Shown here in pieces: positions 6,821 through 26,923 of a stretch of 32,583 nucleotides of DNA. The notes beneath the pieces were generated by a model. That model saw only the letters and a list, made by a program, of their open reading frames with translations, made no database searches and had not been told where the DNA came from. Source of the DNA: an uncultured Bacteroidales bacterium. Lineage in GTDB: Bacteria > Bacteroidota > Bacteroidia > Bacteroidales > Bacteroidaceae. The DNA lies in assembly GCA_902785075.1 (NCBI GenBank), contig CACZXN010000016.1, forward strand, positions 17,771-50,353, read 5' to 3'. The position numbers were made by a program, and so were the translations under genes. Numbering within the stretch: the first letter of the stretch is position 1; every line of letters starts with the position of its first letter.

Positions 6821-6883
6821 ATGGGGCGAATAGGACCAATGGGACCAATGAGGCCTATGAGGCCAATGAGGCGAATGGGGCAA
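6821..6883 (+). repeat. Nonamer array R4 (7 units)
   Basis: Seven in-phase units run ATGGGGCGA, ATAGGACCA, ATGGGACCA, ATGAGGCCT, ATGAGGCCA, ATGAGGCGA, ATGGGGCAA. It sits between the divergent rpsP and iorA promoters, so it is probably outside both transcripts. Confidence 0.85.
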
Positions 6884-7029: not shown

Positions 7030-7060
7030 TTTGCGCTTCGCTCGGTTTTTGCTAACTTTG
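7030..7060 (+). promoter_or_regulatory. Promoter of the iorA operon
   Basis: A -33 TTTG (7030-7033), a 19-base spacer and a -7 TAACTTTG (7053-7060) match the Bacteroidetes promoter exactly. The predicted start of transcription is about 40 bases before the iorA ATG. It is the only clear promoter I found before the 7.1-19.9 kb gene run. Confidence 0.75.
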
Positions 7061-7104: not shown

Positions 7105-8706
7105 ATGAACAAACAACTGCTTTTAGGTGATGAAGCGATTGCGCTTGGTGCCATAAATGCAGGGTTAAGCGGTGTCTACGCTTACCCTGGAACACCAAGC
7201 ACAGAAATCACCGAATTTATTCAAAACAATCCTGAAGCCAAAGCCAGAGGTATTCACAGCCGCTGGTGTACCAACGAAAAGACAGCGATGGAAGCTGCAT
7301 TGGGCATGTCGTATGCCGGCAAGAGAGCTTTGGTATGTATGAAACATGTAGGAATGAACGTATGCGCAGATGCGTTTGTCAACTCTGCCATCACTGGAGT
7401 GAACGGAGGGCTGGTGGTATTAGCCGCAGACGACCCATCGATGCATTCGAGCCAAAACGAACAAGACAGCCGCTTCTATGGTAAGTTTGCAATGGTTCCT
7501 GTGTTCGAACCAAGCAACCAACAAGAGGCCTATGATATGATGGCAACAGCCTTTGAGTTTTCGGAAACCATCAAAGAACCTATTGTGATGCGTGTTGTGA
7601 CACGTCTAGCTCACAGCCGTGCAGCCGTTGAGGTGAACGAAGCCAAGAAAGAGAATCCGTTGAACATCTGCACAGAACGCTGGGTGTTGCTGCCTGGTAT
7701 TGCACGTAAGCGTTATGTAGATTTGATTGACAAGCAGCCAACGATGGAGCAAGCTGCTGAGGACTCTATATATAATAAGGTGGAGAAAGGCGGCAGTAAG
7801 AAATTAGGTATCATCGCTTGCGGTATTGCTTATAACTATGTGAAAGAAGCTGTTGGTGACGATGCAAATATCCTAAAGGTATCACAATATCCGCTTCCAG
7901 CAAAGAAAGTAAAGCAGCTGGCACAAGAGAACGATGCCATCCTGATTGTCGAAGACGGACAACCCGTGGTAGAAGAGCAGGTGGCAGGAATCCTTGGCGC
8001 AGGCTATCCTATCAAAGGACGTCTGACAGGAGATCTCCCCCGTACGGGAGAGTTGAATCCAGACAACGTTGCCAAAGCACTAGGTAAGGAAACGGGGTCA
8101 GCATTTGACGGAGCGAAGAACTTAGCCGGTCGTCCTCCACAGTTGTGTCAGGGTTGCGGTCATCGTGATGTTTACACCGCACTGAACCAAGTACTTGCAG
8201 AATATCCAGACTACAGAGTGTTTGGTGACATCGGTTGCTATACACTCGGTGCATTACCACCCTTCAAGGCTTTGGCCAGTTGTGTAGATATGGGTGCATC
8301 CATCACAATGGCGAAGGGGGCAGCAGATGCCGGTTTGTTCCCATCGGTTGCCATCATAGGAGACTCAACCTTCACCCACTCAGGTATGACAGGACTGCTT
8401 GATGCTGTAAATGACAAGAGCAATATCACCGTCGTTATATCGGACAACCTCACCACTGGTATGACAGGAGGTCAGGACAGTGCTGGTACCAATAAGTTCG
8501 AAGCTATCTGTCTGGGGCTGGGTGTTGAGCCTGAACATGTACGTGTGGTCGTTCCACTTCCGAAGAACATGCCAGAAATCACCCAAATACTGAAAGAAGA
8601 GATTGAATATAATGGAGTAAGTGTGATTATTCCTCGCCGTGAGTGCATCCAGACAGCAGCACGTCACGCAAGGGAGGCGAAAAGAGCGAAGGAGGCAAAC
8701 AAATGA
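7105..8706 (+). CDS. iorA: Indolepyruvate ferredoxin oxidoreductase, alpha subunit (no ferredoxin domain)
   Basis: With IorB it interconverts arylpyruvate plus CoA and aryl-acetyl-CoA plus CO2, using ferredoxin and thiamine diphosphate. The N-terminal pyrimidine-binding domain contains GVYAYPGTPSTEI and the E...TAMEAALGMSYAG segment. The TPP domain carries CQGCGHRD (GCGH at 350-353), the GDIGCYTLG segment, GDSTFTHSG (419-427) and SDNLTTGMTGGQ. The protein is 533 residues and stops just after IPRREC plus a charged tail, so it lacks the C-terminal two-cluster ferredoxin domain of the well-known archaeal enzyme (about 620-650 residues). I chose ATG 7105 over an in-frame TTG at 7093 because the family N-terminus begins right there. 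The stop overlaps the iorB start (ATGA). Confidence 0.93.
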   Translation: MNKQLLLGDEAIALGAINAGLSGVYAYPGTPSTEITEFIQNNPEAKARGIHSRWCTNEKTAMEAALGMSYAGKRALVCMKHVGMNVCADAFVNSAITGVNGGLVVLAADDPSMHSSQNEQDSRFYGKFAMVPVFEPSNQQEAYDMMATAFEFSETIKEPIVMRVVTRLAHSRAAVEVNEAKKENPLNICTERWVLLPGIARKRYVDLIDKQPTMEQAAEDSIYNKVEKGGSKKLGIIACGIAYNYVKEAVGDDANILKVSQYPLPAKKVKQLAQENDAILIVEDGQPVVEEQVAGILGAGYPIKGRLTGDLPRTGELNPDNVAKALGKETGSAFDGAKNLAGRPPQLCQGCGHRDVYTALNQVLAEYPDYRVFGDIGCYTLGALPPFKALASCVDMGASITMAKGAADAGLFPSVAIIGDSTFTHSGMTGLLDAVNDKSNITVVISDNLTTGMTGGQDSAGTNKFEAICLGLGVEPEHVRVVVPLPKNMPEITQILKEEIEYNGVSVIIPRRECIQTAARHAREAKRAKEANK

Positions 8707-9272
8707 AAAAAGATATTATCCTTTGCGGTGTGGGTGGACAAGGTATCCTCTCCATCGCCACAGTCATCGGTAAGGCAGCTACAGAGGCAGGCATTAACCT
8801 GAAACAAGCAGAAGTACACGGAATGAGTCAGCGAGGTGGTGACGTACAGTCGAACCTACGTCTATCGACCGACAAAATCTATTCAGACTTGATTCCTCAA
8901 GGCGGTGCAGATTTAATTATCAGCATGGAACCGATGGAATCGCTGCGCTACCTACCCTATCTTGCCAAGAACGGTACGATTGTGACTAGCAGCAAACCAT
9001 TTATCAATATCCCCAACTACCCCGACGAAGCTGCCTTGCAAGAAGAACTCGACAGTCTTCCCTCAGTAGTGAAACTTGATATCGAGTCAGTAGCGAAGGA
9101 TGCCGGCAATGCACGCGGTGCCAATATGGTGTTGCTCGGTATGGCGGCCCCATACTTAGAGATTATCACCGTAGATCAGCTCAGGAAAGCAATAACTGCA
9201 ATCTTCGCACGCAAAGGTGAAGCTGTGGTTGAAGCCAACTTGAAGGCATTCGATATGGGAGCGGGGAGGTAA
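8703..9272 (+). CDS. iorB: Indolepyruvate ferredoxin oxidoreductase, beta subunit
   Basis: This 189-residue subunit is the 2-oxoacid oxidoreductase gamma-type domain that partners IorA. It begins with the typical MKKDIILCGVGGQGILS and carries the family motif AEVHGMSQRGGDVQSNLR. The start ATG at 8703 overlaps the iorA stop, the normal arrangement for coupled subunits; an upstream GTG in the same frame lies inside iorA and is unlikely. The length is normal. No cysteine clusters are present, so neither subunit appears able to bind the Fe-S clusters expected for the complex, apart from a separate ferredoxin. Confidence 0.93.
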   Translation: MKKDIILCGVGGQGILSIATVIGKAATEAGINLKQAEVHGMSQRGGDVQSNLRLSTDKIYSDLIPQGGADLIISMEPMESLRYLPYLAKNGTIVTSSKPFINIPNYPDEAALQEELDSLPSVVKLDIESVAKDAGNARGANMVLLGMAAPYLEIITVDQLRKAITAIFARKGEAVVEANLKAFDMGAGR

Positions 9273-9295
9273 GAAAAAAACAGACCCACCCCCTT

Positions 9296-9317
9296 ACCCC
9301 TCCCTCTATGGAGGGGT
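9296..9317 (+). other. Hairpin between iorB and the first ligase gene
   Basis: An 8-bp stem (9296-9303 with 9310-9317) and a 6-base loop lie 23 bases after iorB. No T-run follows on the + strand, so it is more likely an mRNA stability or processing element than a terminator. Confidence 0.45.
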
Positions 9318-9357
9318 GTATCATGATAGAAAACAAATAACATAGTTATCAGATTAT

Positions 9358-10689
9358 ATGGAAAAGAGAATACCTGATGATGCATGCCAGTACTTTAACG
9401 AGGCGATGGAGACGATGACACGTGCAGAGATAGAAGCCCTGCAGTTGAAACGTCTGCAAGCAACAGTGAAGCACTGTATGCAGTCACCTTTTTACAAGAA
9501 ACGCTTCGAGGAAATAGGCTTGAAGCCAGAAGATATCAAAACCTTAGCGGACATCCGCAAGATACCGTTTACAACCAAGCAAGATCTACGAGACACATAT
9601 CCCTTCGGAATTGCAAGTACGCCACTCCGCAATTGTGTGCGCCTGCACTCATCAAGTGGTACTACCGGTAACCCTACAGTGATTCTGCATACTCAGCAGG
9701 ACTTGGATGAATGGGCCAATCAAGTAGCACGTAATCTTTGGATGGTTGGACTGCGTCCTGACGATGTGTTCCAAAACTCTAGCGGTTATGGAATGTTCAC
9801 TGGTGGATTGGGATTCCAATACGGAGCAGAGCGTTTGGGCATGCTCACCGTCCCTGCTGCCGCAGGTAACTCTTTGCGCCAAATTAAGTTCATCACAGAC
9901 TTCGGAACGACAGCCCTCCATGCGGTACCATCATACGTGACCCGTCTGTATGAAGTCATGAAGGACAATGGTGTAGATCCACGTAAAGACACCAAACTCA
10001 AAGTGCTTGCCATTGGAGCAGAACCACACTCAGAAGAACAGCGCAAACGTATTGAGGAGATGATGGGTGTGAAAGCCTACAACTCCTTCGGTATGAGTGA
10101 GATGTGCGGTCCAGGTGTAGGCTTCGAATGTAAGGAGCAAAACGGCCTCCACTTCTGGGAAGACTATTATATCGTAGAGATTGTAGATCCAGAGACCTTG
10201 GAGCCAGTGCCAGACGGAGAAATCGGAGAATTGGTACTAACCACCCTGTGTAGAGAAGCGATGCCTCTGCTACGCTATCGTACACGTGACCTCACGAGAG
10301 TATTGGGCCGCAGTTGTCCATGTGGACGCAACCACGTAAGGATTGACCGTATGCGTGGTCGCAGCGATGACATGATTGTTCTCCGTGGTGTCAACATCTT
10401 CCCAATCCAGATAGAAAAGATCCTGATGCAGTTCCCAGAACTTGCCAACAACTATCTCATCACCCTCACTACCGATGAGGACAATGATAACATGACGGTA
10501 GAAGTTGAGCTTGAAGAACTCTTCACAGATGACTATAGCCGTCTGCTCGACCTTGAAAGTAGAATACGTCGAGCATTGAAGGACGAAATTCTGCTCACAC
10601 CACATATCAAGCTTGTTCCAAAAGGTTCATTGCCTGTATCCGAAGGCAAAGCCGTACGAGTGGTTGACAAGAGAAAAGTTTATCAATAA
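9358..10689 (+). CDS. paaK: Phenylacetate-CoA ligase family protein, paralogue 1
   Basis: This 443-residue AMP-forming enzyme joins an arylacetate (phenylacetate, hydroxyphenylacetate or indoleacetate) to CoA using ATP. The ATP loop is SSSGTTGNP (from Ser98). Further ANL-family motifs are FGMSEMCGPGVG, the LRYRTRDLTR hinge region and the C-terminal GRSDDMIVLRGVNIFPIQIE. A CPCGR segment typical of PaaK precedes the C-terminal domain. The length is normal. It follows iorB by 85 bases and is related to the gene at 12868 (same motifs, clearly different sequence), so the two probably have different substrates. The substrate is inferred from family and context. Confidence 0.9.
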   Translation: MEKRIPDDACQYFNEAMETMTRAEIEALQLKRLQATVKHCMQSPFYKKRFEEIGLKPEDIKTLADIRKIPFTTKQDLRDTYPFGIASTPLRNCVRLHSSSGTTGNPTVILHTQQDLDEWANQVARNLWMVGLRPDDVFQNSSGYGMFTGGLGFQYGAERLGMLTVPAAAGNSLRQIKFITDFGTTALHAVPSYVTRLYEVMKDNGVDPRKDTKLKVLAIGAEPHSEEQRKRIEEMMGVKAYNSFGMSEMCGPGVGFECKEQNGLHFWEDYYIVEIVDPETLEPVPDGEIGELVLTTLCREAMPLLRYRTRDLTRVLGRSCPCGRNHVRIDRMRGRSDDMIVLRGVNIFPIQIEKILMQFPELANNYLITLTTDEDNDNMTVEVELEELFTDDYSRLLDLESRIRRALKDEILLTPHIKLVPKGSLPVSEGKAVRVVDKRKVYQ

Positions 10690-10693
10690 GAAG

Positions 10694-10747
10694 ATGGGAC
10701 TAATGGGACCAATGAGGCCAATGAGGCCAATGAGGCCAATAAGTTAA
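10694..10747 (+). repeat. Nonamer array R5 (5-6 units)
   Basis: The units are ATGGGACTA, ATGGGACCA, then ATGAGGCCA three times, then the degenerate ATAAGTTAA. It lies 4 bases after the ligase stop and 24 bases before the ACT gene. Read in frame it is a closed 17-codon ORF of Met-Gly/Arg-Pro repeats ending in TAA at 10745-10747. Confidence 0.85.
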
Positions 10748-10771
10748 TAGACTACTAAAAACTAGAAGCAT

Positions 10772-11191
10772 ATGACAGTCAAACAACTTTCAATATTCAT
10801 CGAAAACAAAGAAGGAACACTGACCAAGGTTCTCGATCTGTTGAGCAAGGCAGGCATTCAGATTATTGCCTCAACCATTGCTGACACCAAAGACTATGGT
10901 ATCTACCGCGTGCTCTGTGACAAACCGACACAGGCATACCTGATACTCAAAGAGAATGGCATCAACGTACAGTTGGCAGATGTCATTGCACTCAGTATCG
11001 ATGATGTACCAGGTCGTGCAGCAGAAGCCGTAAAGACACTCTCTGCAGCAAATGTCAACATCCTGTACCTCTACTCTTTCCTTTGGAAAGGAAAAGGAGT
11101 TCTGATACTTCGCACAGACAATAGTTCAAAGGCAAACGAGACCATCATCATCAACAAGATGTCATTCCTCACCGAAGCCGACTTTGCGTAG
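10772..11191 (+). CDS. Tandem ACT-domain protein
   Basis: This 139-residue protein consists of two ACT domains and little else: residues ~3-68 (QLSIFIENKEGTLTKVLDLLSKAGI) and ~70-136 (VIALSIDDVPGRAAEAVKTLSAANVNI). ACT domains bind small ligands, most often amino acids, and regulate enzymes or transcription. Stand-alone ACT proteins occur next to ligases of the PaaK family in anaerobes. Here it lies between a ligase and a transporter in an aromatic acid operon, so sensing phenylalanine, tyrosine or tryptophan is a reasonable inference. No catalytic or DNA-binding part is visible. Confidence 0.88.
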   Translation: MTVKQLSIFIENKEGTLTKVLDLLSKAGIQIIASTIADTKDYGIYRVLCDKPTQAYLILKENGINVQLADVIALSIDDVPGRAAEAVKTLSAANVNILYLYSFLWKGKGVLILRTDNSSKANETIIINKMSFLTEADFA

Positions 11192-11272
11192 TAAAAATGG
11201 GAAAATGAAGGATTGACAAATTAAAGAATTGAAATAACAAATACCAATGTAAACAAACACAATTAACACACT

Positions 11273-12838
11273 ATGTTGATCAAAATTTTGCTCACCGTGA
11301 TTTTCCTTTGCGTCACCATCGCAGTAGGAATATACTCACGAAAACAAGCCTCATCGGTTGAGGGCTTCGTTCTAGGTGGCCGTTCTGTCGGTCCTTGGCT
11401 CACTGCATTTGCCTTTGGCACCTCATACTTCTCAGCAGTTGTATTTGTCGGTTATGCAGGTCAGTTCGGTTGGAAATATGGAATGTCGGCATCATGGATT
11501 GGTATCGGGAATGCCGTCATCGGTTCTCTTTTGGCCTGGCTGATATTAGGTCGCAGAACCAAGATGATGACCCAGCATATTCAAAGCCGGACCATGCCAG
11601 ACTTCTTCGGTACTCGTTTTGCAGACGAGAAGTTGAGAGTCGTAGCATCTATTATTGCCTTTGTATTCCTCATCCCTTACACTGCAGGTGTATATATGGG
11701 TATCTCAAAGTTGTTTGAGATGGGATTCGGTATCCCTTACGCATACTGTGCCTTTATCATGGCCTTATTGACTGCCCTTTATGTGATACTTGGAGGTTAT
11801 AAGGCAACAGCAATCAACGACTTTATACAAGGTATTATCATGTTGTTTGGCATCACGACCATCATAGCAGTTGTACTGAACAACCAAGGAGGACTGACAG
11901 AATCATTGCGAAAAATGGGGGAAGCCGTACCAACCACCCATGATATGGAAGACCCATCTGGACTGTTTGCCAACTTCCAACCAGGTGACTTCGCCTCGTG
12001 GTTGGGACCAAACCCACTGAGTCTGCTCGGTGTAGTTGTTCTCACTTCACTCGGTACATGGGGACTACCCCAGATGGTTGGTAAGTTCTATTCAATCACC
12101 GATGAAGCAGCCATCAAACGCGGAACTATTATCTCTACCATCTTTGCTTTCGTTGTAGCAGGCGGCTGTTATTTCCTTGGAGGTTTCGGACGATTGTTCC
12201 CTGAGCCTGCCTTTAACGAGGTAACCCATAAATATGCCTACGACAGCATCGTGCCTTCGATGTTGGAGACATTGCCAGATATCTTGATTGCCTTAGTGGT
12301 GTTGTTAGTATTATCAGCCTCCATGTCCACATTGGCATCATTGGTACTCACCTCTTCATCGACCATGACCCTTGACTTGATTTACAGAGACAAGAAAGCG
12401 AAAGCTGGTGAGGTAGAAGAAGGACAGATCAACGACCAGGTGGCAGAGAAGATTGAACGCAGAAAAGTAATTGTGATGCGTGTGCTGATTGTATTCTTCA
12501 TCGTACTATCACTGATGATCGCCTTGAACCCACCACAGTTCATCGCCCAGCTGATGGGTATCTCATGGGGAGCCCTGGCAGGAGCATTCCTTGCACCATT
12601 CATGCTTGGACTCTATTGGAAGGGCGTGACTAAAGCTGCTGTTTGGGCATGCTTTATCTGGGGTGTAGGCATTACCGTTGTCAACATGCTGATGCATAAT
12701 GCCTTCTTGAACCCAATTGATTGCGGTGCCGTTGCAATGGTAGGAGGATTTATTGTTGTATTCATCGTGAGTCTGGTAACTCCGAAGATGAAGAGAGATA
12801 CTGTCAATCATATCTTTGAATGTTATAAAAAACCATAA
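11273..12838 (+). CDS. Sodium:solute symporter (SSS family)
   Basis: This 521-residue inner-membrane protein has about 13 hydrophobic helices. Features of the SSS family include the N-terminal FVLGGRSVGPWLTAFAFG segment, SRTMPDFFGTRF, and the signature LGGYKATAINDFIQG near residues 174-188, plus a late LVLSASMSTLASL segment. SSS members carry proline, pantothenate, sugars, acetate and, in Pseudomonas, phenylacetate. The two flanking ligase genes make an aromatic acid the most likely cargo here, but this cannot be read from the sequence. It follows the ACT gene by 81 bases with no visible promoter. Confidence 0.88.
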   Translation: MLIKILLTVIFLCVTIAVGIYSRKQASSVEGFVLGGRSVGPWLTAFAFGTSYFSAVVFVGYAGQFGWKYGMSASWIGIGNAVIGSLLAWLILGRRTKMMTQHIQSRTMPDFFGTRFADEKLRVVASIIAFVFLIPYTAGVYMGISKLFEMGFGIPYAYCAFIMALLTALYVILGGYKATAINDFIQGIIMLFGITTIIAVVLNNQGGLTESLRKMGEAVPTTHDMEDPSGLFANFQPGDFASWLGPNPLSLLGVVVLTSLGTWGLPQMVGKFYSITDEAAIKRGTIISTIFAFVVAGGCYFLGGFGRLFPEPAFNEVTHKYAYDSIVPSMLETLPDILIALVVLLVLSASMSTLASLVLTSSSTMTLDLIYRDKKAKAGEVEEGQINDQVAEKIERRKVIVMRVLIVFFIVLSLMIALNPPQFIAQLMGISWGALAGAFLAPFMLGLYWKGVTKAAVWACFIWGVGITVVNMLMHNAFLNPIDCGAVAMVGGFIVVFIVSLVTPKMKRDTVNHIFECYKKP

Positions 12839-12867
12839 AAACACGCAAACATAAAAACAAAAACATT

Positions 12868-14184
12868 ATGATTCACAATCCACAAATGGAATGCATGCCC
12901 CGTGAGGACATGCGCAAATTACAATCAGAGCGTCTGATTAAGACCGTAAAGACTTGTTATGAGAAAGTTCCTTTCTATAAGAAGAAGATGGACCGTATGG
13001 GGGTAAAACCCGAAGATATCCGTAGTATAGACGATATCTACAAGTTACCATTCACTACAAAGCACGACTTGCGCGATGAGTATCCGTTCGGTCTGCAAGC
13101 CGTACCTCACAGTGAAATTCGACGTATCCATGCCTCATCAGGAACAACAGGAAAGCCTGTTGTCGGTACCTATACAGAGAACGACTTGAAGATGTGGGCA
13201 GAGTGTGTGGCACGCGTTTTGGCTGTTGGCGATATAGGACCAGGTGATACGGTGCAGGTAGCATACGGATATGGTCTCTTTACCGGAGGTTTAGGCGCCC
13301 ATGACGGTGTGGCATTTCGTGGAGCAATTCAGTTACCTACTTCAGCAGGCAACTCAGAGAAGCAGATTATGCTGATGAAAGACTTTGGTACAACAGCCTT
13401 ATGCTGTACCCCATCCTATGCACTGCATTTAGCAGAGGTGATTGAAAAGAATCCTGATATCAATGCAGAAGACCTGAAATTACGTGTCGGTTTCTTCGGA
13501 GCAGAACCATGGACATGGGGTATCCGCCGCGAGTTGGAAAAGAAACTGCACATCAAAGCAATCGATATTTACGGACTGACAGAAATGTGTGGTCCTGGTG
13601 TAGGTGGTGAATGTCTGTTCCAGAACGGTACACATGTAGCTGAGGACATGTTCTATCCAGAAATCATCAACCCAGAAACACTGGAGCCAGTAGCACCAGG
13701 CGAAGAGGGCGAGTTGGTATTTACCTCTTTATGTAAAGAGGCCATGCCTATTCTCCGCTATCGTACACGCGACCTGACCCACCTTATCTATGAGCCTTGC
13801 GAATGTGGACGTACAACAGTCCGTTTGGGTAAGATTTTAGGTCGTAGCGATGACATGCTCATCATTCGCGGTGTGAACGTATTCCCATCACAGATAGAGA
13901 CAATACTGACAGAGTTCCCTGTATTCACGCCACAGTATTTCATCACAGTAGACCGCAAGAACAACGAAGACACATTCGACCTCGATGTCGAGTTGCGTTC
14001 GGAGTTCTTCTCTCCTAACCCAGCCAAGCAGATGCCGTTCATCAAACCACTCTACGACCGCATCGTCAGCATGGTTGGCATCAAACCAAATATCCACATT
14101 AAGGAACCGGGTAATATTGAACGTTCGACAGGTAAGGCACAGCATGTGCTCGACAAACGAACCATCCTGACGGATTGGAAATAA
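12868..14184 (+). CDS. paaK: Phenylacetate-CoA ligase family protein, paralogue 2
   Basis: This second 438-residue AMP-forming aryl-CoA ligase has ATP loop SSGTTGKPV (from Ser90), YGLTEMCGPGVGGEC, LRYRTRDLTH, CECGR and GRSDDMLIIRGVNVFPSQIE. It is co-linear with the first ligase from end to end but differs at many positions, including the region before YGLTE, which lines the acyl pocket in this family. The pair therefore looks like an old duplication with divided substrate range rather than a recent copy. It starts 29 bases after the symporter gene. Which arylacetate each enzyme uses is unknown. Confidence 0.9.
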   Translation: MIHNPQMECMPREDMRKLQSERLIKTVKTCYEKVPFYKKKMDRMGVKPEDIRSIDDIYKLPFTTKHDLRDEYPFGLQAVPHSEIRRIHASSGTTGKPVVGTYTENDLKMWAECVARVLAVGDIGPGDTVQVAYGYGLFTGGLGAHDGVAFRGAIQLPTSAGNSEKQIMLMKDFGTTALCCTPSYALHLAEVIEKNPDINAEDLKLRVGFFGAEPWTWGIRRELEKKLHIKAIDIYGLTEMCGPGVGGECLFQNGTHVAEDMFYPEIINPETLEPVAPGEEGELVFTSLCKEAMPILRYRTRDLTHLIYEPCECGRTTVRLGKILGRSDDMLIIRGVNVFPSQIETILTEFPVFTPQYFITVDRKNNEDTFDLDVELRSEFFSPNPAKQMPFIKPLYDRIVSMVGIKPNIHIKEPGNIERSTGKAQHVLDKRTILTDWK

Positions 14185-14220
14185 GAAGTCCCCTGCACCC
14201 TTTAGGAGGAGAGAGGGCCT

Positions 14221-14247
14221 ATGGGGCTAATGAGGCCTATTGGCAAA
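14221..14247 (+). repeat. Nonamer array R6 (2-3 units)
   Basis: ATGGGGCTA, ATGAGGCCT and the degenerate ATTGGCAAA lie between the second ligase and the aminotransferase genes. From the first ATG an ORF of 25 codons runs to 14298 and overlaps the aminotransferase start at 14279 in another frame. Confidence 0.65.
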
Positions 14248-14278
14248 AAGGAGGAGTTCAACAAAAAAATTAAGCGAA

Positions 14279-15592
14279 ATGACAAATACGCCACTTAACT
14301 ATCAGACAGTCACCGAGGCCATAGACAGCATGGCTCTCGGTGATTTCTCACAAGCCACGATACGCGATATTCAGTCGCTATCGAAAATATTAGAAGAAAA
14401 GACAGGTCAGCCCGTCATCCATTTGGAGATGGGTGTACCAGGTTTGCAACCCTCACAGATTGCTCTAAAGGCAGAACAGGAAGCATTGGCCAATGGTTGT
14501 GCAACCATTTACCCTCCTAATGGTGGCATCCCCCGTATCAAGAATGCAGCATCAAAGTTTGTCAAGGCCTTCATCGATGTTGACATTGACCCCTTGTGTT
14601 GCATTCCTACGACAGGCAGTATGCAAGGTACGTTTGCAACGTTTACGGCTTGGCACCACGCCATGCCAGAGAAAGATACGGTTCTGTTCATCCATCCAGG
14701 ATTCCCAGTACAGACCACTCAGTGTGATGTCATCGGGCTGAAACATATCGGGTTAGACATCCACGACTTCCGAGGTGAGGTGCTCATCAGCAAACTAGAT
14801 GAGATTCTTTCTGCAGGCAATATCTGCGGTATCGTCTATTCTAATCCCAACAACCCATCATGGGTTTGTTTCAACGAAGAAGAACTGAAGGGAATTGGCG
14901 GATTAGCAACCAAACATGATGTCATTGTGCTTGAGGACTTAGCCTATTTCGCTATGGACTTCCGCCGCGACCTCTCCCATCCTTTCCAAGCACCATTCCA
15001 AGCAACTGTAGCCCGTTATACAGACAACTATATCCTCGCCATTTCAGGATCGAAAGCTTTCTCGTATGCTGGTCAGCGAATCGGTGTTCTTTGCATCAGT
15101 AACGTGCTCTATCATCGGATTTATCCATCCTTGGAGCAACATTTTGGTGTGGGTGAGTTTGGAAACTTTATCTGTAACAGACTGATGTACACCCTATCGA
15201 GTGGAACCACCCATAGTGTACAACACGCGATGGCCGCATTGATGGAAGCAGCCTGCGACGGTGCATATAACTTTTTGAGTGATGTGCGTGAATATGGACG
15301 TAGAGCCAAGTTCATGAAAGACGTGCTACTTGCTAATGGATTTTATCTTGTATATGACAACGATTTAGGAGCACCTTTAGCAGATGGATTCTACTTCACT
15401 GTACAGTATCCAGGCATGAACGACCTGCAACTCACACGCGAGTTGATGTACTATGGCATCGCAGTATTCCCGCTCGACACAATGGGATCTAACGAGCAAG
15501 GTGTACGCATCTGCACCTCTTTCTTCAGCAAAGAGCAGGAACCGCTTTTCGAGGAACGTATCAAGGCATTCCATGCGAATCACGTATCATGA
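14279..15592 (+). CDS. PLP-dependent aminotransferase, class I/II
   Basis: This is a 437-residue fold-type I aminotransferase. The PLP lysine is Lys259 in SGSKAFSYAGQRIG, and the upstream YSNPNNPS and LEDLAYFAMD segments match the cofactor-binding Asn and Asp/Tyr sites. An Arg near the C-terminus (GVRICTSFF) fits the substrate carboxylate ligand. In this operon it would convert arylpyruvates and aromatic amino acids into each other. I chose ATG 14279 over an in-frame TTG at 14240, which lies in repeat R6 and would add a Lys/Arg-rich leader not expected for the family. The exact amino acid used cannot be read from the sequence. Confidence 0.88.
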   Translation: MTNTPLNYQTVTEAIDSMALGDFSQATIRDIQSLSKILEEKTGQPVIHLEMGVPGLQPSQIALKAEQEALANGCATIYPPNGGIPRIKNAASKFVKAFIDVDIDPLCCIPTTGSMQGTFATFTAWHHAMPEKDTVLFIHPGFPVQTTQCDVIGLKHIGLDIHDFRGEVLISKLDEILSAGNICGIVYSNPNNPSWVCFNEEELKGIGGLATKHDVIVLEDLAYFAMDFRRDLSHPFQAPFQATVARYTDNYILAISGSKAFSYAGQRIGVLCISNVLYHRIYPSLEQHFGVGEFGNFICNRLMYTLSSGTTHSVQHAMAALMEAACDGAYNFLSDVREYGRRAKFMKDVLLANGFYLVYDNDLGAPLADGFYFTVQYPGMNDLQLTRELMYYGIAVFPLDTMGSNEQGVRICTSFFSKEQEPLFEERIKAFHANHVS

Positions 15593-15625
15593 AGTAATGC
15601 TAGCCACCTTTAGTCTCTATAAATC

Positions 15626-16039
15626 ATGACATTACTTGAACGACTTAACAAGACTGACCATTTTGCTGCAAGTATAGGAGCCAGGCTCACAGAAATACGT
15701 GATGGGTATGCCAAGGCAGAGATGACAGTGGGCGACCAACACCTGAATGGAGGCGGTGTCTGCCAAGGAGGAGCTATCTACACCCTTGCCGACCTGAGTT
15801 TTGCGGCAGTATCAAACAGTCATGGACTGCTTACGTTAGGGATTGCCAATAATATCACGTTTCTTAAATCTGCACAATTAGGAGACCATTTGACTGCGGT
15901 GTGTTCCGAGACCTTCAACCACCATAAGCTACCCTATTGCGACATCAAGGTCACCAACCAAGACGGAGCATTGATTGCCGTCATGACAGGCCTTTCGTAT
16001 CGGATGAATAAAGAGATGGAAATAGATGCACTGATGTAA
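15626..16039 (+). CDS. Hotdog-fold thioesterase, PaaI type
   Basis: This 137-residue single hotdog domain has the PaaI/YbgC-like pattern HLNGGGVCQGGAIYTLADLSFA (in two parts, near residues 39-60) containing the Gly-Gly and Asp positions of acyl-CoA hydrolases. PaaI-type enzymes cleave aryl-CoA thioesters and recover CoA in phenylacetate pathways. As the last gene of the aromatic module, it could release arylacetates from aryl-CoA or act as a safety valve against CoA trapping. It follows the aminotransferase by 33 bases. Substrate range is inferred from context. Confidence 0.85.
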   Translation: MTLLERLNKTDHFAASIGARLTEIRDGYAKAEMTVGDQHLNGGGVCQGGAIYTLADLSFAAVSNSHGLLTLGIANNITFLKSAQLGDHLTAVCSETFNHHKLPYCDIKVTNQDGALIAVMTGLSYRMNKEMEIDALM

Positions 16040-16060
16040 GAAAAACTCAAAAACTACATA

Positions 16061-17320
16061 ATGAAAAAACGACTTCTAACTATTCTGTCATGTTGCATTG
16101 CAACTTGTTTGTATGCACAAACCTTTTCGTTTGACGGCACAGACAAAACAGCGATTCAGATAAAACCGTCCGACGTGTATAACACCACGATTGGTTACGG
16201 ATATGACTTAACCCGATTGGCTCCAGTGGAGGCAGGCAAACCTTTCTTTTTCTCCGTCAGTGTACCCGACGGCAACTATAGAGTGACAGTCACTCTCGGT
16301 TCAAAGAAATGTGCAGGAAACACCACCGTACGTGCCGAGTCACGACGTCTGTTCGTTGAAAACCTTATTACCAAGAAGGGAGCGTTGCGTCAAGTCAGTT
16401 TTGTGGTCAACAAACGCAATACGATGATTGGAACGAATGATCGAGTTAGGATTAAAGACAGAGAGAAAACCAAATTGAACTGGGATGATAAACTCACGAT
16501 TGAAATCAACGGTGATGCACCAGCCTGCTCGTCCATCAAAATAGAACCAGCAGATGATGTCACAACGTTATGGCTCTGCGGTAACTCCACGGTTGTAGAT
16601 CAAGACTATGAACCTTGGGCGAGTTGGGGACAGATGATTCCACGTTGGTTTGATGACAAGATAGCCGTTGCAAACTATGCAGAGAGTGGCGAGACAGCAG
16701 CCTCGTTTATCGCAGCCAACCGTCTGAAAAAGATTATGACGCTTGCAAAAGCAGGCGATTACCTTTTTATCGAGTTCGGTCATAATGACCAAAAACAAAA
16801 AACACCAGGCTCAGGAGCCTATTATAATTTTGCTACAAACTTAAAGCAATTTATCGATGAAGCCAAAGCCAAGGGTGTAACCCCCGTCTTCATAACACCT
16901 ACACAACGAAGGACGTTCAATACTGCAGGTAAAATCACGGAAAGTCATGGAGACTATCCCGATGCCATGCGATGGGTGGCACAACATGAAGGAGTGCAGG
17001 TGATAGAGCTGCATGACATGACCCGTACATTCTTTGAGACGTTAGGTGTAGAGGGTAGCAAGCAGTCGTTGGTGCATTATGCAGCCAACACTTTCCCTGG
17101 ACAATTTACTGCCTTAGCTGACAACACCCACTTTAATCCATACGGAGCCTACGAAATTGCAAAGATGGTGCTCCAAGGTATCAAGGATCTAAATATGCCT
17201 TTTGCATCACATATTTCTACAGACTTTACAGGCTTTGACCCTGCACATCCAGACGATGTTAATCTATTCCATTGGAATAACTCACCTTTCTTTGAAGCAC
17301 TTAAACCAGATGGTAATTAG
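16061..17320 (+). CDS. Secreted SGNH esterase, rhamnogalacturonan acetylesterase-like (CE12)
   Basis: This 419-residue protein has a Sec signal peptide (cleavage likely after CLYAQ, ~residue 20). Residues ~22-165 form a beta-rich accessory domain. The SGNH hydrolase domain follows, with Ser176 in LCGNSTVVD, Asn242 in FGHND and the Asp354/His357 pair in DNTHFNPYGA. This pattern is that of rhamnogalacturonan acetylesterases, which remove acetyl groups from pectin backbones, acting in the periplasm or at the surface. It is 3 bases upstream of a GH106-type gene, which supports a pectin role. It starts only 21 bases after the thioesterase gene with no promoter visible between. Confidence 0.87.
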   Translation: MKKRLLTILSCCIATCLYAQTFSFDGTDKTAIQIKPSDVYNTTIGYGYDLTRLAPVEAGKPFFFSVSVPDGNYRVTVTLGSKKCAGNTTVRAESRRLFVENLITKKGALRQVSFVVNKRNTMIGTNDRVRIKDREKTKLNWDDKLTIEINGDAPACSSIKIEPADDVTTLWLCGNSTVVDQDYEPWASWGQMIPRWFDDKIAVANYAESGETAASFIAANRLKKIMTLAKAGDYLFIEFGHNDQKQKTPGSGAYYNFATNLKQFIDEAKAKGVTPVFITPTQRRTFNTAGKITESHGDYPDAMRWVAQHEGVQVIELHDMTRTFFETLGVEGSKQSLVHYAANTFPGQFTALADNTHFNPYGAYEIAKMVLQGIKDLNMPFASHISTDFTGFDPAHPDDVNLFHWNNSPFFEALKPDGN

Positions 17321-17323
17321 ACT

Positions 17324-19891
17324 ATGAAGACAATCCGTTTTTTTCTCTTCGTTTTAGCCCTGTCCTCCCAAGTATTGACAGCAACAGCACAGACGTCAAG
17401 CAAAACACTTGACTGGGCACCCATATTACCAGAATCCCGTCCATATACCCGTTGGTGGTGGTTAGGCAGTGCCGTGAACGAAGAAGGTCTGAAATATAAC
17501 CTAACAGAATATGCCAAGGCTGGAATAGGAGGTGTAGAGATAACCCCTATCTATGGCGTGAAAGGCAACGATGCGAACAACATAGAGTATCTTTCACCAC
17601 AATGGATGAAGATGTTGGGAACCGTTGAACAAATCTCAAAGGAATTAGGACTGGAAGTCAACATGGCAACTGGTACAGGTTGGCCCTTTGGCGGTCCAAA
17701 CGTGCCAGAGCATGAAGCTGCAGCCAAGCTAAAAGTGCAAGACAGGCAACTGCTAACAGACCGCACGCGACAGAAAGTGAAGCGTGCCGCTCCTGGGGGT
17801 GAGGGATTTGTCATTGACCATTTTAACCGTCAGAGTGTTGAGCATTATTTAGCAGTATTTGACAAGGCTTTCGAACAAAGCGGAGTGCCCTACCCCCATA
17901 CTTTCTTCAACGACTCGTATGAGGTCTATAATGCAGACTGGACTCCGAACATGCTTGAGGAATTCAAGGCACGTCGAGGCTATGCCCTTGAAGACCACAT
18001 AGACGACTTCTTAGGTCTGTCGGAAAACAAAGACATCCAACGTCGAGTGATGTCAGACTACCGAGAGACCTTGTCAGACTTGCTTTATGAGAACTTTACA
18101 ACCACTTGGACAGAGTGGGCACATAGACATGGAGCCATCACTCGCAATCAGGCTCATGGCAGTCCTGCAAATCTAATAGACCTCTATGCAGAAGTCGATA
18201 TTCCAGAATGCGAGGGTTTTGGATTATCTGACTTTCACATCAAAGGACTTAGAACGGACCCAGGTTTCACAAAAGCCAATTATTCCGACCTTTCAATGCT
18301 GAAATACGCATCGTCTGGAGCACATATTTCAGGGAAACAGTTTACCTCTTCAGAGACATTCACTTGGCTCACTGAGCATTTCCGCACCTCATTCTCTCAA
18401 TGTAAACCCGATTTTGACCTGATGATGGTAGCAGGAGTGAATCATGTATTCTTTCACGGCAGTTGTTACACCCCAAAAGACGACCCTTGGCCAGGATGGA
18501 AGTTCTATGCATCAATAGACATGTCACCTACCAACAACCTTTGGGAGGATGCACCGGCTTTCTGCAAATACATTGAGCGGACACAGAGTTTCATGCAATA
18601 TGGAGAGCCTGACAACGACATCTTAGTGTACCTACCTTTTTATGATATGATTTATGAGCAACCAGGTCGGTTGGTACAGTTTGACATTCATAGTATGGCA
18701 GAACGTGCACCAAAGTTTATCAGCAGTATCAATGCCATCATTAAAGCAGGATTCGACTGTGATTATATTTCAGACCGGTATTTGATGAAAACCCAAGTAA
18801 CAGGCGGTCAACTCACCACTACAGGCCGCAATCGCTATGTCGCAATTGTGATACCAGACGTTAGGTTTATGCCTATGGCGACCCTGCAGCAATTGATCAC
18901 GCTTGCCCAACAAGGCGCTAAGATTATCTGTATCAGTCACATGCCACAAAGTGCCCCAGGACTAAAAGGATTGAATGTGCAAGAAGCTTATAACCATGCC
19001 CTATCTCAATTGAAGAACTTGGCTATCATTACAGACAACTATGCTGAGATAAACCGATTTGCCAATCCAGAACTAATGCGTACACAACAAGGACTGAGTT
19101 GTATACGGAGAGCTAGTCATGGAGACTATTTTTATTTCATTAGTAATCTACAGGAAAAAGATATCGATGAATGGATAACAATGGGCAAAAAAGCCAAGTT
19201 TGCCACATTCTATCAACCGATGAATGGTGATGTTCGTAAAGCTGGCATCAGACAGAATTCTGATGGGATGTCGGAAGTCAGAATGCAACTTAAATCAGGA
19301 GAATCTATTATTCTCTATTTATCTGATACCGACAATTCCCATCTGATACCTTATTCATATATGAACTATGCAAGTGAGACCATACAAGAATTGAACGGAT
19401 GGACATTGCGATTCACTGCATCTGCCCCAACATCTATCCATAAAACGTATAAGATGGCTGTTCCGACATCATGGACAGAACTAGGCGACAATAATCTTAA
19501 TGAGACGATGGCCACCGGATGCTACACCACATCATTCAACTACAAAGAGAAAAAAGGACGTACCATCATCCTTGACTTAGGAGATGTACGTGAGACGGCA
19601 CGTGTCAGCATAAACGGGAAAGATGTAGCCACCCTATTTGCCGTTCCTTATCAAGTAGACATTACAGACTATGTCCGCAAAGGTCAAAATACATTAGAAA
19701 TCAGTGTGCGTAACCTCGGAGCCAATCGAATTAGCAAACTAGACAAAGAAGGTGTAGAATGGCGAAAGTTCAATGAAATCAACGTCGTTGACCTGAATTA
19801 CAAAAATACCCGTTATGACCAATGGGCACCCATGCCTTCAGGTCTATGTTCATCGGTCAGATTACGCACCTATACACCTCTCAACCTATAA
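17324..19891 (+). CDS. Secreted GH106-family alpha-L-rhamnosidase-like enzyme
   Basis: This is an 855-residue protein with a Sec signal peptide ending around TATAQ (residue 23). The N-terminal text RPYTRWWWLGSAVNEEGL, followed by AKAGIGGVEITPIYG and ATGTGWPFGGPNVP, is typical of GH106, which removes alpha-L-rhamnose from pectic glycans. Acidic residues in NDSYEVYN and TSSETFTWL are candidates for the active site. A C-terminal jelly-roll segment (INGKDVATLFAVPYQVDIT) resembles a galactose-binding-like module. At 855 residues it is shorter than characterised GH106 enzymes of around 1100. It pairs with the acetylesterase in front of it. Its last 11 bases overlap the 3' end of the convergent SulP gene. 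Confidence 0.85.
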   Translation: MKTIRFFLFVLALSSQVLTATAQTSSKTLDWAPILPESRPYTRWWWLGSAVNEEGLKYNLTEYAKAGIGGVEITPIYGVKGNDANNIEYLSPQWMKMLGTVEQISKELGLEVNMATGTGWPFGGPNVPEHEAAAKLKVQDRQLLTDRTRQKVKRAAPGGEGFVIDHFNRQSVEHYLAVFDKAFEQSGVPYPHTFFNDSYEVYNADWTPNMLEEFKARRGYALEDHIDDFLGLSENKDIQRRVMSDYRETLSDLLYENFTTTWTEWAHRHGAITRNQAHGSPANLIDLYAEVDIPECEGFGLSDFHIKGLRTDPGFTKANYSDLSMLKYASSGAHISGKQFTSSETFTWLTEHFRTSFSQCKPDFDLMMVAGVNHVFFHGSCYTPKDDPWPGWKFYASIDMSPTNNLWEDAPAFCKYIERTQSFMQYGEPDNDILVYLPFYDMIYEQPGRLVQFDIHSMAERAPKFISSINAIIKAGFDCDYISDRYLMKTQVTGGQLTTTGRNRYVAIVIPDVRFMPMATLQQLITLAQQGAKIICISHMPQSAPGLKGLNVQEAYNHALSQLKNLAIITDNYAEINRFANPELMRTQQGLSCIRRASHGDYFYFISNLQEKDIDEWITMGKKAKFATFYQPMNGDVRKAGIRQNSDGMSEVRMQLKSGESIILYLSDTDNSHLIPYSYMNYASETIQELNGWTLRFTASAPTSIHKTYKMAVPTSWTELGDNNLNETMATGCYTTSFNYKEKKGRTIILDLGDVRETARVSINGKDVATLFAVPYQVDITDYVRKGQNTLEISVRNLGANRISKLDKEGVEWRKFNEINVVDLNYKNTRYDQWAPMPSGLCSSVRLRTYTPLNL

Positions 19892-26822: not shown

Positions 26823-26856
26823 TATTATAATAAGGTATAAGGAAAGGTAGGGACGT

Positions 26857-26881
26857 AAAAAAAGGGGTAACGCCTTACCCC
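26857..26881 (-). terminator. Strong minus-strand intrinsic terminator
   Basis: A 7-bp G/C-rich stem (26864-26870 with 26875-26881), a 4-base loop and then a run of seven T on the minus strand (complement of 26857-26863). It lies about 190 bases beyond the end of the minus-strand lipoprotein gene, so it may end that transcript, the candidate small RNA, or both. Confidence 0.75.
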
Positions 26882-26918
26882 AAAATTGTTAACCTTAAAT
26901 CTAATACTATGAAAAACA
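26857..26918 (-). ncRNA. Candidate ~60-nt small RNA
   Basis: On the minus strand a full promoter (TAACTTTG at the complement of 26924-26931, with CTTG 19 bases upstream) is followed within ~60 bases by a strong intrinsic terminator. There is no ATG and no gene between. The predicted RNA has a ~35-base A/U-rich single-stranded 5' part and a terminator stem-loop, the usual form of a base-pairing small RNA. The other reading is an extended 3' UTR of the lipoprotein gene. Confidence 0.4.
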
Positions 26919-26923
26919 CGTTG

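Follow-up and report, generated by a model that had tools for sequence, protein, structure and literature searches.

A 32,583-nucleotide stretch of DNA from an uncultured Bacteroidales bacterium (hereafter the window; positions 17771–50353 of contig 16 of a 2.9 Mb genome, G000, that is 85.5% complete) carries a real, well-conserved operon of a known kind, which unites genes for arylacetate-CoA ligases, an indolepyruvate/arylpyruvate:ferredoxin oxidoreductase (IOR) and an aminotransferase. We propose that this operon encodes a reversible module that probably works mainly in the assimilatory direction, from arylacetates to aromatic amino acids. Our comparative analysis increased the support for assimilation, part of which was contradicted at the genome level. 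Profile scans with Pfam and NCBIfam models placed eight genes between 7105 and 16039, all on the + strand and about where an earlier note on this DNA had located them, downstream of a promoter-like site:

7030..7060, + strand: promoter-like site TTTG-N19-TAACTTTG upstream of iorA, a match to the Bacteroidetes promoter consensus
7105..8706, + strand: iorA, IOR alpha subunit, apparently without the C-terminal 2[4Fe-4S] domain (TIGR03336, 527 bits)
8703..9272, + strand: iorB, beta subunit (NF005324, 300.9 bits, above the cut-off of 222)
9358..10689, + strand: PaaK arylacetate-CoA ligase, first class (TIGR02155, 476 bits; 4r1l, E 4.9e-196)
10772..11191, + strand: stand-alone tandem ACT protein, ACT_8 (PF19571, 193.8 bits; 2f06, E 9.9e-25)
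11273..12838, + strand: SSS sodium:solute symporter, candidate aryl acid importer (PF00474; TIGR02121, 199.8 bits, below cut-off)
12868..14184, + strand: PaaK arylacetate-CoA ligase, second class (TIGR02155, 519.9 bits)
14279..15592, + strand: pyridoxal phosphate (PLP) aminotransferase of the 3g0t family, predicted to act on aromatic 2-oxoacids (PF00155; 3g0t, E 7.3e-135; SGSK motif)
15626..16039, + strand: PaaI-like hotdog thioesterase (TIGR02286, 95.7 bits; TIGR00369, 66.3 bits; 1psu match)

Ligase, IOR and aminotransferase form the gene set of the arylacetate assimilation pathway, and all are present in the operon, in keeping with the sequence of steps suggested earlier (activation, reductive carboxylation, transamination). 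Across the organism's own genome there are one IOR and two PaaKs, all inside the operon, with the remaining matches weak or partial. From gene content, order, conservation and co-occurrence, we infer substrates, direction, amino donor, regulation and transport. The two PaaKs would spend ATP (to AMP) to convert phenyl-, hydroxyphenyl- or indoleacetate to arylacetyl-CoA, which IorAB would carboxylate to arylpyruvate with reduced ferredoxin (or flavodoxin). The aminotransferase would then form phenylalanine, tyrosine or tryptophan, perhaps with glutamine as donor, and an omega-amidase encoded elsewhere in the genome would destroy 2-oxoglutaramate, making the transamination one-way. ACT_8 may restrain the ligases under an abundant supply of aromatic amino acids, and the thioesterase could release CoA trapped as arylacetyl-CoA. 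With the de novo phenylalanine route also present, the module would save carbon and energy and fill no gap.

The gene set is conserved far beyond chance. Among 80 related loci (hereafter relatives), iorB lies near iorA in all 80 and PaaK in 62. Where 8 kb or more lay downstream of iorA (58 relatives), we found nearby an aminotransferase in 52, PaaK in 44 (two PaaKs in 27), ACT_8 in 40, the thioesterase in 15 and the SSS symporter in 9; the entire eight-gene set occurs in five relatives (L009, L016, L019, L020 and L021). The best IorA matches in named genomes were from Bacteroidales, and several of the records are titled rumen, reticulum or omasum. Whole-genome searches, which covered 50 of the 80 relatives, found PaaK in 45 (two PaaKs in 37 of these) and prephenate dehydratase (PDT) in 44. 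Four loci from genomes of 2.6–3.8 Mb (L072, L073, L076 and L079) have iorAB and an aminotransferase with no PaaK match; PDT is present in three of these genomes and absent from that of L072, and they may be arylacetate producers or incomplete genomes. Two records filed as plasmids (NZ_OY725823.1 and NZ_OY725969.1) carry uvrA, recR or other chromosomal-looking genes and are probably chromosome fragments.

To place the module in the order, we sampled 246 Bacteroidales genomes (the organism's own and 245 with a completeness of 95% or more) and scored genes as present at E-value thresholds of 1e-40 for IOR, 1e-90 for PaaK, 1e-15 for PDT, 1e-55 for the amidase family YafV and 1e-60 for the aminotransferase, treating weaker matches as absent and absence of PDT as absence of de novo phenylalanine synthesis. 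IOR was present in 209 genomes, PaaK in 56 and PDT in 117. PDT accompanied PaaK in 54 of 56 genomes, compared with 63 of the 190 without PaaK (P = 7e-19). The same held within the 209 IOR-bearing genomes (51/52 with PaaK, 39/157 without; P = 1e-22); seen from the other side, PaaK occurs in 51 of the 90 that have both IOR and PDT and in 1 of the 119 that have IOR and no PDT. The link persisted when tested by family (P = 3.6e-11; 241 genomes in 96 families, leaving out five genomes without a family label) and in 500 draws of a single genome from each family, which gave a median P of 7e-9 and a maximum of 2e-5. PaaK is thus found alongside de novo synthesis of phenylalanine, not in its stead. This co-occurrence is consistent with assimilation as an additional route and tells against salvage that compensates for the loss of a pathway.

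The organism itself conforms to this pattern. Its PDT scored above cut-off; the gene shares a contig with iorA, at a distance of ∼57 kb, and behind it come a further aminotransferase gene (its product 23% identical to that of the operon) and two genes that resemble, by their first residues, DAHP synthase and prephenate dehydrogenase (TyrA); an aroA-like match fell below cut-off (259.5 versus 287.25 bits). With PDT here and in 54 of the 56 PaaK-bearing genomes, we rejected the idea, carried by the word 'salvage' in the earlier note, that the operon substitutes for a missing phenylalanine pathway.

PaaK also adjoins PDT in two genomes of one family among the 96 (G109 and G243), where both stand beside an operon-type aminotransferase. 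In L130 (G243), the order is PaaK, PDT, flavodoxin, aminotransferase (51% identical) and then the three subunits (alpha, beta and gamma) of an oxidoreductase, the alpha subunit exceeding the cut-off of the VorB model (541.6 versus 399 bits). L129 (G109) is similarly composed, with two PaaKs; there the oxidoreductase was recognised by similarity and first residues only and PDT by position. Judged by their genes, these loci bring predicted activation of arylacetates together with a 2-oxoacid oxidoreductase and the synthesis of phenylalanine. They belong to 20 PaaK-bearing loci chosen partly for a listed nearby ligase (L129–L131 for PaaK, not IOR), so that counts among them are not frequencies. 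L131 (2805-13976) carries PaaK-ACT_8-PaaK and, at some distance, an SSS gene next to what by eye look like leucine biosynthesis genes.

Searching by similarity to the gene of L114, and discarding one weak hit (L066_0, 24%), we found a YafV-like (nitrilase-family) gene within the operon or next to it in 28 of the 80 relatives, on the same strand in 27. It is directly 5′ of iorA in 24 (23 on the same strand; divergent in L062) and further along the operon in four (L009, L022, L030 and L034). Four loci, L138, L139, L140 and L143 of Phocaeicola massiliensis, share the order yafV-iorA-iorB-aminotransferase-PaaK-ACT_8, and L137 has yafV with an aminotransferase and no IOR or PaaK matches nearby. The four YafV-like proteins that were scanned (from L114, L051, L061 and the organism's own genome; L051 and L061 are among the 28) all scored above the cut-off of NF007757, presumably the YafV family. 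YafV has been connected to omega-amidase (PMC3223725), and removal of 2-oxoglutaramate is reported to render glutamine transamination irreversible (PMC6302742). In the ketoglutaramate ratchet of methionine salvage (PMC6302742), as in relatives of the window, a YafV-family amidase is clustered with an aminotransferase; in contrast to that ratchet, the relatives' amidase sits beside IOR and PaaK, the operon of the window has none, there is no genome-level link and the glutamine donor is putative. For the omega-amidase link to an IOR/PaaK operon, our searches of an open-licence library found no publication.

Several observations weigh against a mainly assimilatory role, and part of them favour an oxidative use, in which the aminotransferase and IorAB would convert phenylalanine, tyrosine or tryptophan to arylacetyl-CoA while reducing ferredoxin, the arylacetate would be freed by the thioesterase (or a reversed PaaK) and the SSS symporter would handle the acid or the amino acid. 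IOR is commoner in genomes without PDT (119/129) than in those with it (90/117; P = 0.001). In 117 of the 119 genomes with IOR and no PDT the aminotransferase is present, in 1 PaaK, and so the aminotransferase–IOR pair must have another, perhaps oxidative, use there. PaaK and IOR were not significantly linked at the genome level (52/56 versus 157/190; P = 0.09), four PaaK-bearing genomes (G085, G141, G170 and G280) gave no IOR match, and P. distasonis and B. finegoldii have related aminotransferases that are not near any IOR. The link between PaaK and PDT could itself arise from general prototrophy or habitat. The omega-amidase likewise fits imperfectly: the organism's own yafV is on contig 16 (G000:C16) at 61355-62116, ∼36 kb from iorA, and YafV, present in 205 of the 246 genomes, is rarer with PaaK than without (40/56 versus 165/190; P = 0.013) and with PDT than without (91/117 versus 114/129; P = 0.04), and shows no link with the aminotransferase (P = 0.8). 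YafV was therefore not supported as a genome-level marker of the module, its weak links running the opposite way, and the evidence for the omega-amidase link is gene adjacency. From the literature, the B. thetaiotaomicron IOR is involved in conversion of phenylalanine to phenylacetate, according to work cited in PMC13285125, and B. fragilis releases phenylacetate (PMC11304471).

The presence of a thioesterase within the operon adds to the case for oxidation, and yet other evidence opposes it. AMP-forming ligases favour acyl-CoA synthesis, as argued in PMC13285125, and many of the IOR- and VOR-type sequences surveyed there lie near kinases or ADP-forming ligases instead; profile scans of the ten genes that run on the same strand at this locus found no ATP-yielding acyl-CoA step of that kind (kinase plus phosphate acyltransferase, or ADP-forming ligase). 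PaaK co-occurs with PDT and adjoins it in the two genomes described above, and omega-amidase genes in relatives' operons favour amination. Quantifiable indoleacetate was reported for 0 of 66 Bacteroidota strains (PMC13290082), which gives no support for a strong oxidative tryptophan route there. The argument from AMP-forming ligases to assimilation, made in the earlier note, agrees with the PaaK–PDT link and the gene neighbours and disagrees with other comparative data. We regard oxidative use of this operon as unlikely. The aminotransferase–IOR pair is widespread in the order, with the ligase marking a subset that also has PDT, and for IOR without ligase and PDT an oxidative use appears to be the best reading.

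IOR chemistry is reversible, and the ligase and thioesterase of one operon work in opposition. With ACT_8 also present, the operon might have no preferred direction, oxidising aromatic amino acids when they are plentiful and assimilating arylacetates when they are scarce, with the ACT protein as the switch. The evidence that favours assimilation tells against this too, and binding of a ligase or an amino acid by ACT_8 is putative, which leaves such an arrangement quite unlikely in our estimation. Mainly assimilatory use of a reversible pathway is the reading that we retain.

Both ligases are predicted to act on arylacetates. They share 46.5% identity; the first very closely resembles the solved 4r1l family and has an SSGTTGNP loop and a GKA...DKR end, and the second scored best with 2y4o and 2y27. 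Their assignment to PaaK is supported by an AMP-binding domain with AMP-binding_C_2, a P-loop and a C-terminal lysine. Both fall under the TIGR02155 equivalog cut-off (476 and 520 bits versus 646), as do all matches in the sample, where 0 of 246 genomes exceeded it. Two PaaKs occur in 33 of the 56 PaaK-bearing genomes of the order, and the pair likely serves two substrate classes. A Bacteroides AMP-forming arylacetate-CoA ligase has been assayed (PMC13285125).

IorAB is predicted to act on arylpyruvates. IorA has POR_N and TPP_enzyme_C domains, both above cut-off, with the beta subunit adjoining. It aligned to positions 2-544 (546 at most) of the 595 in TIGR03336 and scored below cut-off (527 versus 650.9 bits), and the missing C-terminal part is taken to be the 2[4Fe-4S] domain. 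A shortened IorA is typical of the order: none of the 246 genomes exceeded the TIGR03336 cut-off, and among the matches listed three reached the end of the profile (594-595; G083 C117, G078 C51 and G165 C9). A motif search recovered the gene in 45 of the 80 relatives, and in these IorA has a length of 525–570 residues. A separate 57-residue protein of the organism's own genome, with two CxxCxxC motifs, matches positions 538-595 of the IOR alpha model. By analogy with related oxidoreductase structures, cysteines 348, 351, 378 and 514, which are among those of IorA, could be ligands of an inner cluster. Profile scans found no ferredoxin gene in the operon, and electrons must therefore be supplied from elsewhere. 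With this, the truncated IorA and a YafV-like gene far outside the operon, the system is not the self-contained one that it had been thought to be. Among 20 loci from PaaK-lacking genomes, hand-picked at one per family and several of them cut by contig ends (such that counts are not frequencies), iorAB in L098, L101 and L111 lies near genes that by eye resemble those for isocitrate dehydrogenase and citrate synthase.

For the aminotransferase, ATG 14279 is the probable start, because its relative in L021 begins at the corresponding place; TTG 14240 would give a longer frame, and our queries began at 14282, without the start methionine. A structure model built from 18 sequences (mean pLDDT 91.5) matched 3g0t of P. 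gingivalis first in Foldseek (TM 0.96) and then plant prephenate aminotransferase (0.70-0.74). Within the best 50 Foldseek rows, prephenate, aspartate, aromatic, glutamine and kynurenine aminotransferases gave query TM scores of 0.70-0.75. The modelled fold thus fits a role in aromatic metabolism, short of proof, and the amino donor was left unsettled by Foldseek, as several aminotransferase types had like scores. We rejected specificity to the module for this gene: it occurs in 214 of the 246 genomes and follows IOR, being present in 201 of the 209 IOR-bearing genomes.

Among the remaining genes of the operon, ACT_8 is likely an amino acid sensor. The SSS symporter had been put forward as the arylacetate importer, a proposal that its best NCBIfam models (PutP and general SSS, both below cut-off) and its presence near iorA in so few relatives do not uphold. 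In L021 (14123-15217), and also in L009, a signal-peptide protein, porin-like by eye, lies directly 5′ of the SSS gene; its family is present in 11 of 80 loci and is not found between ACT_8 and the symporter gene in the window. The thioesterase did not reach the TIGR02286 equivalog cut-off (95.7 versus 118.9 bits) and exceeded that of TIGR00369. The HGG of E. coli PaaI is QGG in the window; among 11 relatives' thioesterases found by motif search, 10 have QGG and 1 has MGG.

The claim of one clear promoter followed by short gaps stood in part. The TTTG-N19-TAACTTTG match upstream of iorA is of the Bacteroidetes type; the window has three matches to this consensus versus 0.74 expected in shuffles, and a match lies within 400 bp 5′ of iorA in 13 of 78 relatives, so that the site at 7030-7060 is suggestive as the operon promoter, short of proof. 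Intergenic distances in the eight-gene set are -4, 85, 82, 81, 29, 94 and 33 bp: iorA and iorB share four bases and the joints of 29 and 33 bp are short, but others span 81–94 bp. Tandem 9-bp units (CCAATGAGG and variants) lie on the + strand upstream of the operon (6836-6880) and between its genes (10700-10744 and 14218-14235). The window has 11 matches to the unit versus 0.02 expected, including single copies at 2078 (+) and 12327 (-). We rejected the repeat as an operon signal, since no relative among the 80 has more than four units and three have more than two. The sole Rfam match in the window to reach its gathering threshold is a small RNA of the FopS family, a Bacteroidetes family, at 26854-26919 (-) (69.7 bits).

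The eight genes are followed in line by two that had been left out, which extend the same-strand run to ten genes (7105-19891, +):

16061..17320, + strand: GDSL esterase (PF13472), 21 bp after the thioesterase gene
17324..19891, + strand: GH106 alpha-L-rhamnosidase (PF17132; NF049897, 1228 bits, below the cut-off of 1300), after a gap of 3 bp

The pair (16061-19891) resembles a polysaccharide pair that landed downstream of the operon. The two genes are possibly cotranscribed with it and probably unrelated to it in function, and the operon is thus possibly longer than it had been drawn. Their closeness raises the idea that the esterase and the rhamnosidase liberate plant aryl acids as substrates for the ligases, and that IorAB has an unrelated role. 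We consider this highly improbable: GDSL lies near iorA in 1 of 80 relatives and GH106 in none, against 62 for PaaK, and the likeness of GH106 to the alpha-rhamnosidase family points to work on polysaccharide.

Related systems are known elsewhere. The methanogen aryl acid pathway (Methanococcus maripaludis), which runs beside the de novo pathway, also takes aryl acid to aryl-CoA, through reductive carboxylation by an IOR and on to transamination; its ligase is ADP-forming, whereas those of the window are AMP-forming PaaKs, and the IorA of the window appears to lack the C-terminal ferredoxin domain. A Methanobacterium IOR is mentioned in PMC13285125. The oxidative Stickland branch (HpdDEFG; C. 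difficile; PMC13285125) likewise pairs an aminotransferase with an aromatic 2-oxoacid:ferredoxin oxidoreductase, but many Stickland loci have an ATP-making kinase and phosphate acyltransferase or an ADP-forming ligase, in contrast to the AMP-forming ligases found here. For a Bacteroides IOR with an AMP-forming ligase, a biosynthetic role was proposed as possible in 2026 (PMC13285125), the one source in which we found a direct statement on this combination. That system is from the same order, and its IOR adjoins the same type of ligase; the operon of the window differs in uniting two ligases, ACT_8, the SSS symporter, the thioesterase and the aminotransferase. Older work cited in PMC7356843 describes phenylalanine formed from phenylacetate in rumen cultures. 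The main text of GapMind (PMC7311316) makes no mention of aryl, indolepyruvate, phenylpyruvate, reductive carboxylation or ferredoxin. Given the proposal and the rumen work, the idea of the earlier note was already in print in outline. The genome-wide link between PaaK and PDT and the omega-amidase neighbour are absent from the text of PMC13285125 that was compared, and what we add is comparative evidence on direction.

These patterns suggest, tentatively and with considerable doubt, that the system takes two forms in Bacteroidales. Genomes with the aminotransferase and IOR, without PaaK and without PDT, would be arylacetate producers, and phenylalanine prototrophs in which PaaK and ACT_8 join the pair (and an omega-amidase ratchet is linked to it in some lineages) would be consumers. 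If so, arylacetates would be a cross-fed currency within the order, with PaaK separating consumer from producer. Phenylacetylglutamine, reportedly linked to cardiovascular disease, is formed from phenylacetate that gut bacteria supply. If PaaK-bearing Bacteroidales consume arylacetates, the presence of IOR alone would mispredict arylacetate makers, and the PaaK–PDT pattern offers a simple rule at the genome level, open to testing in laboratory strains.

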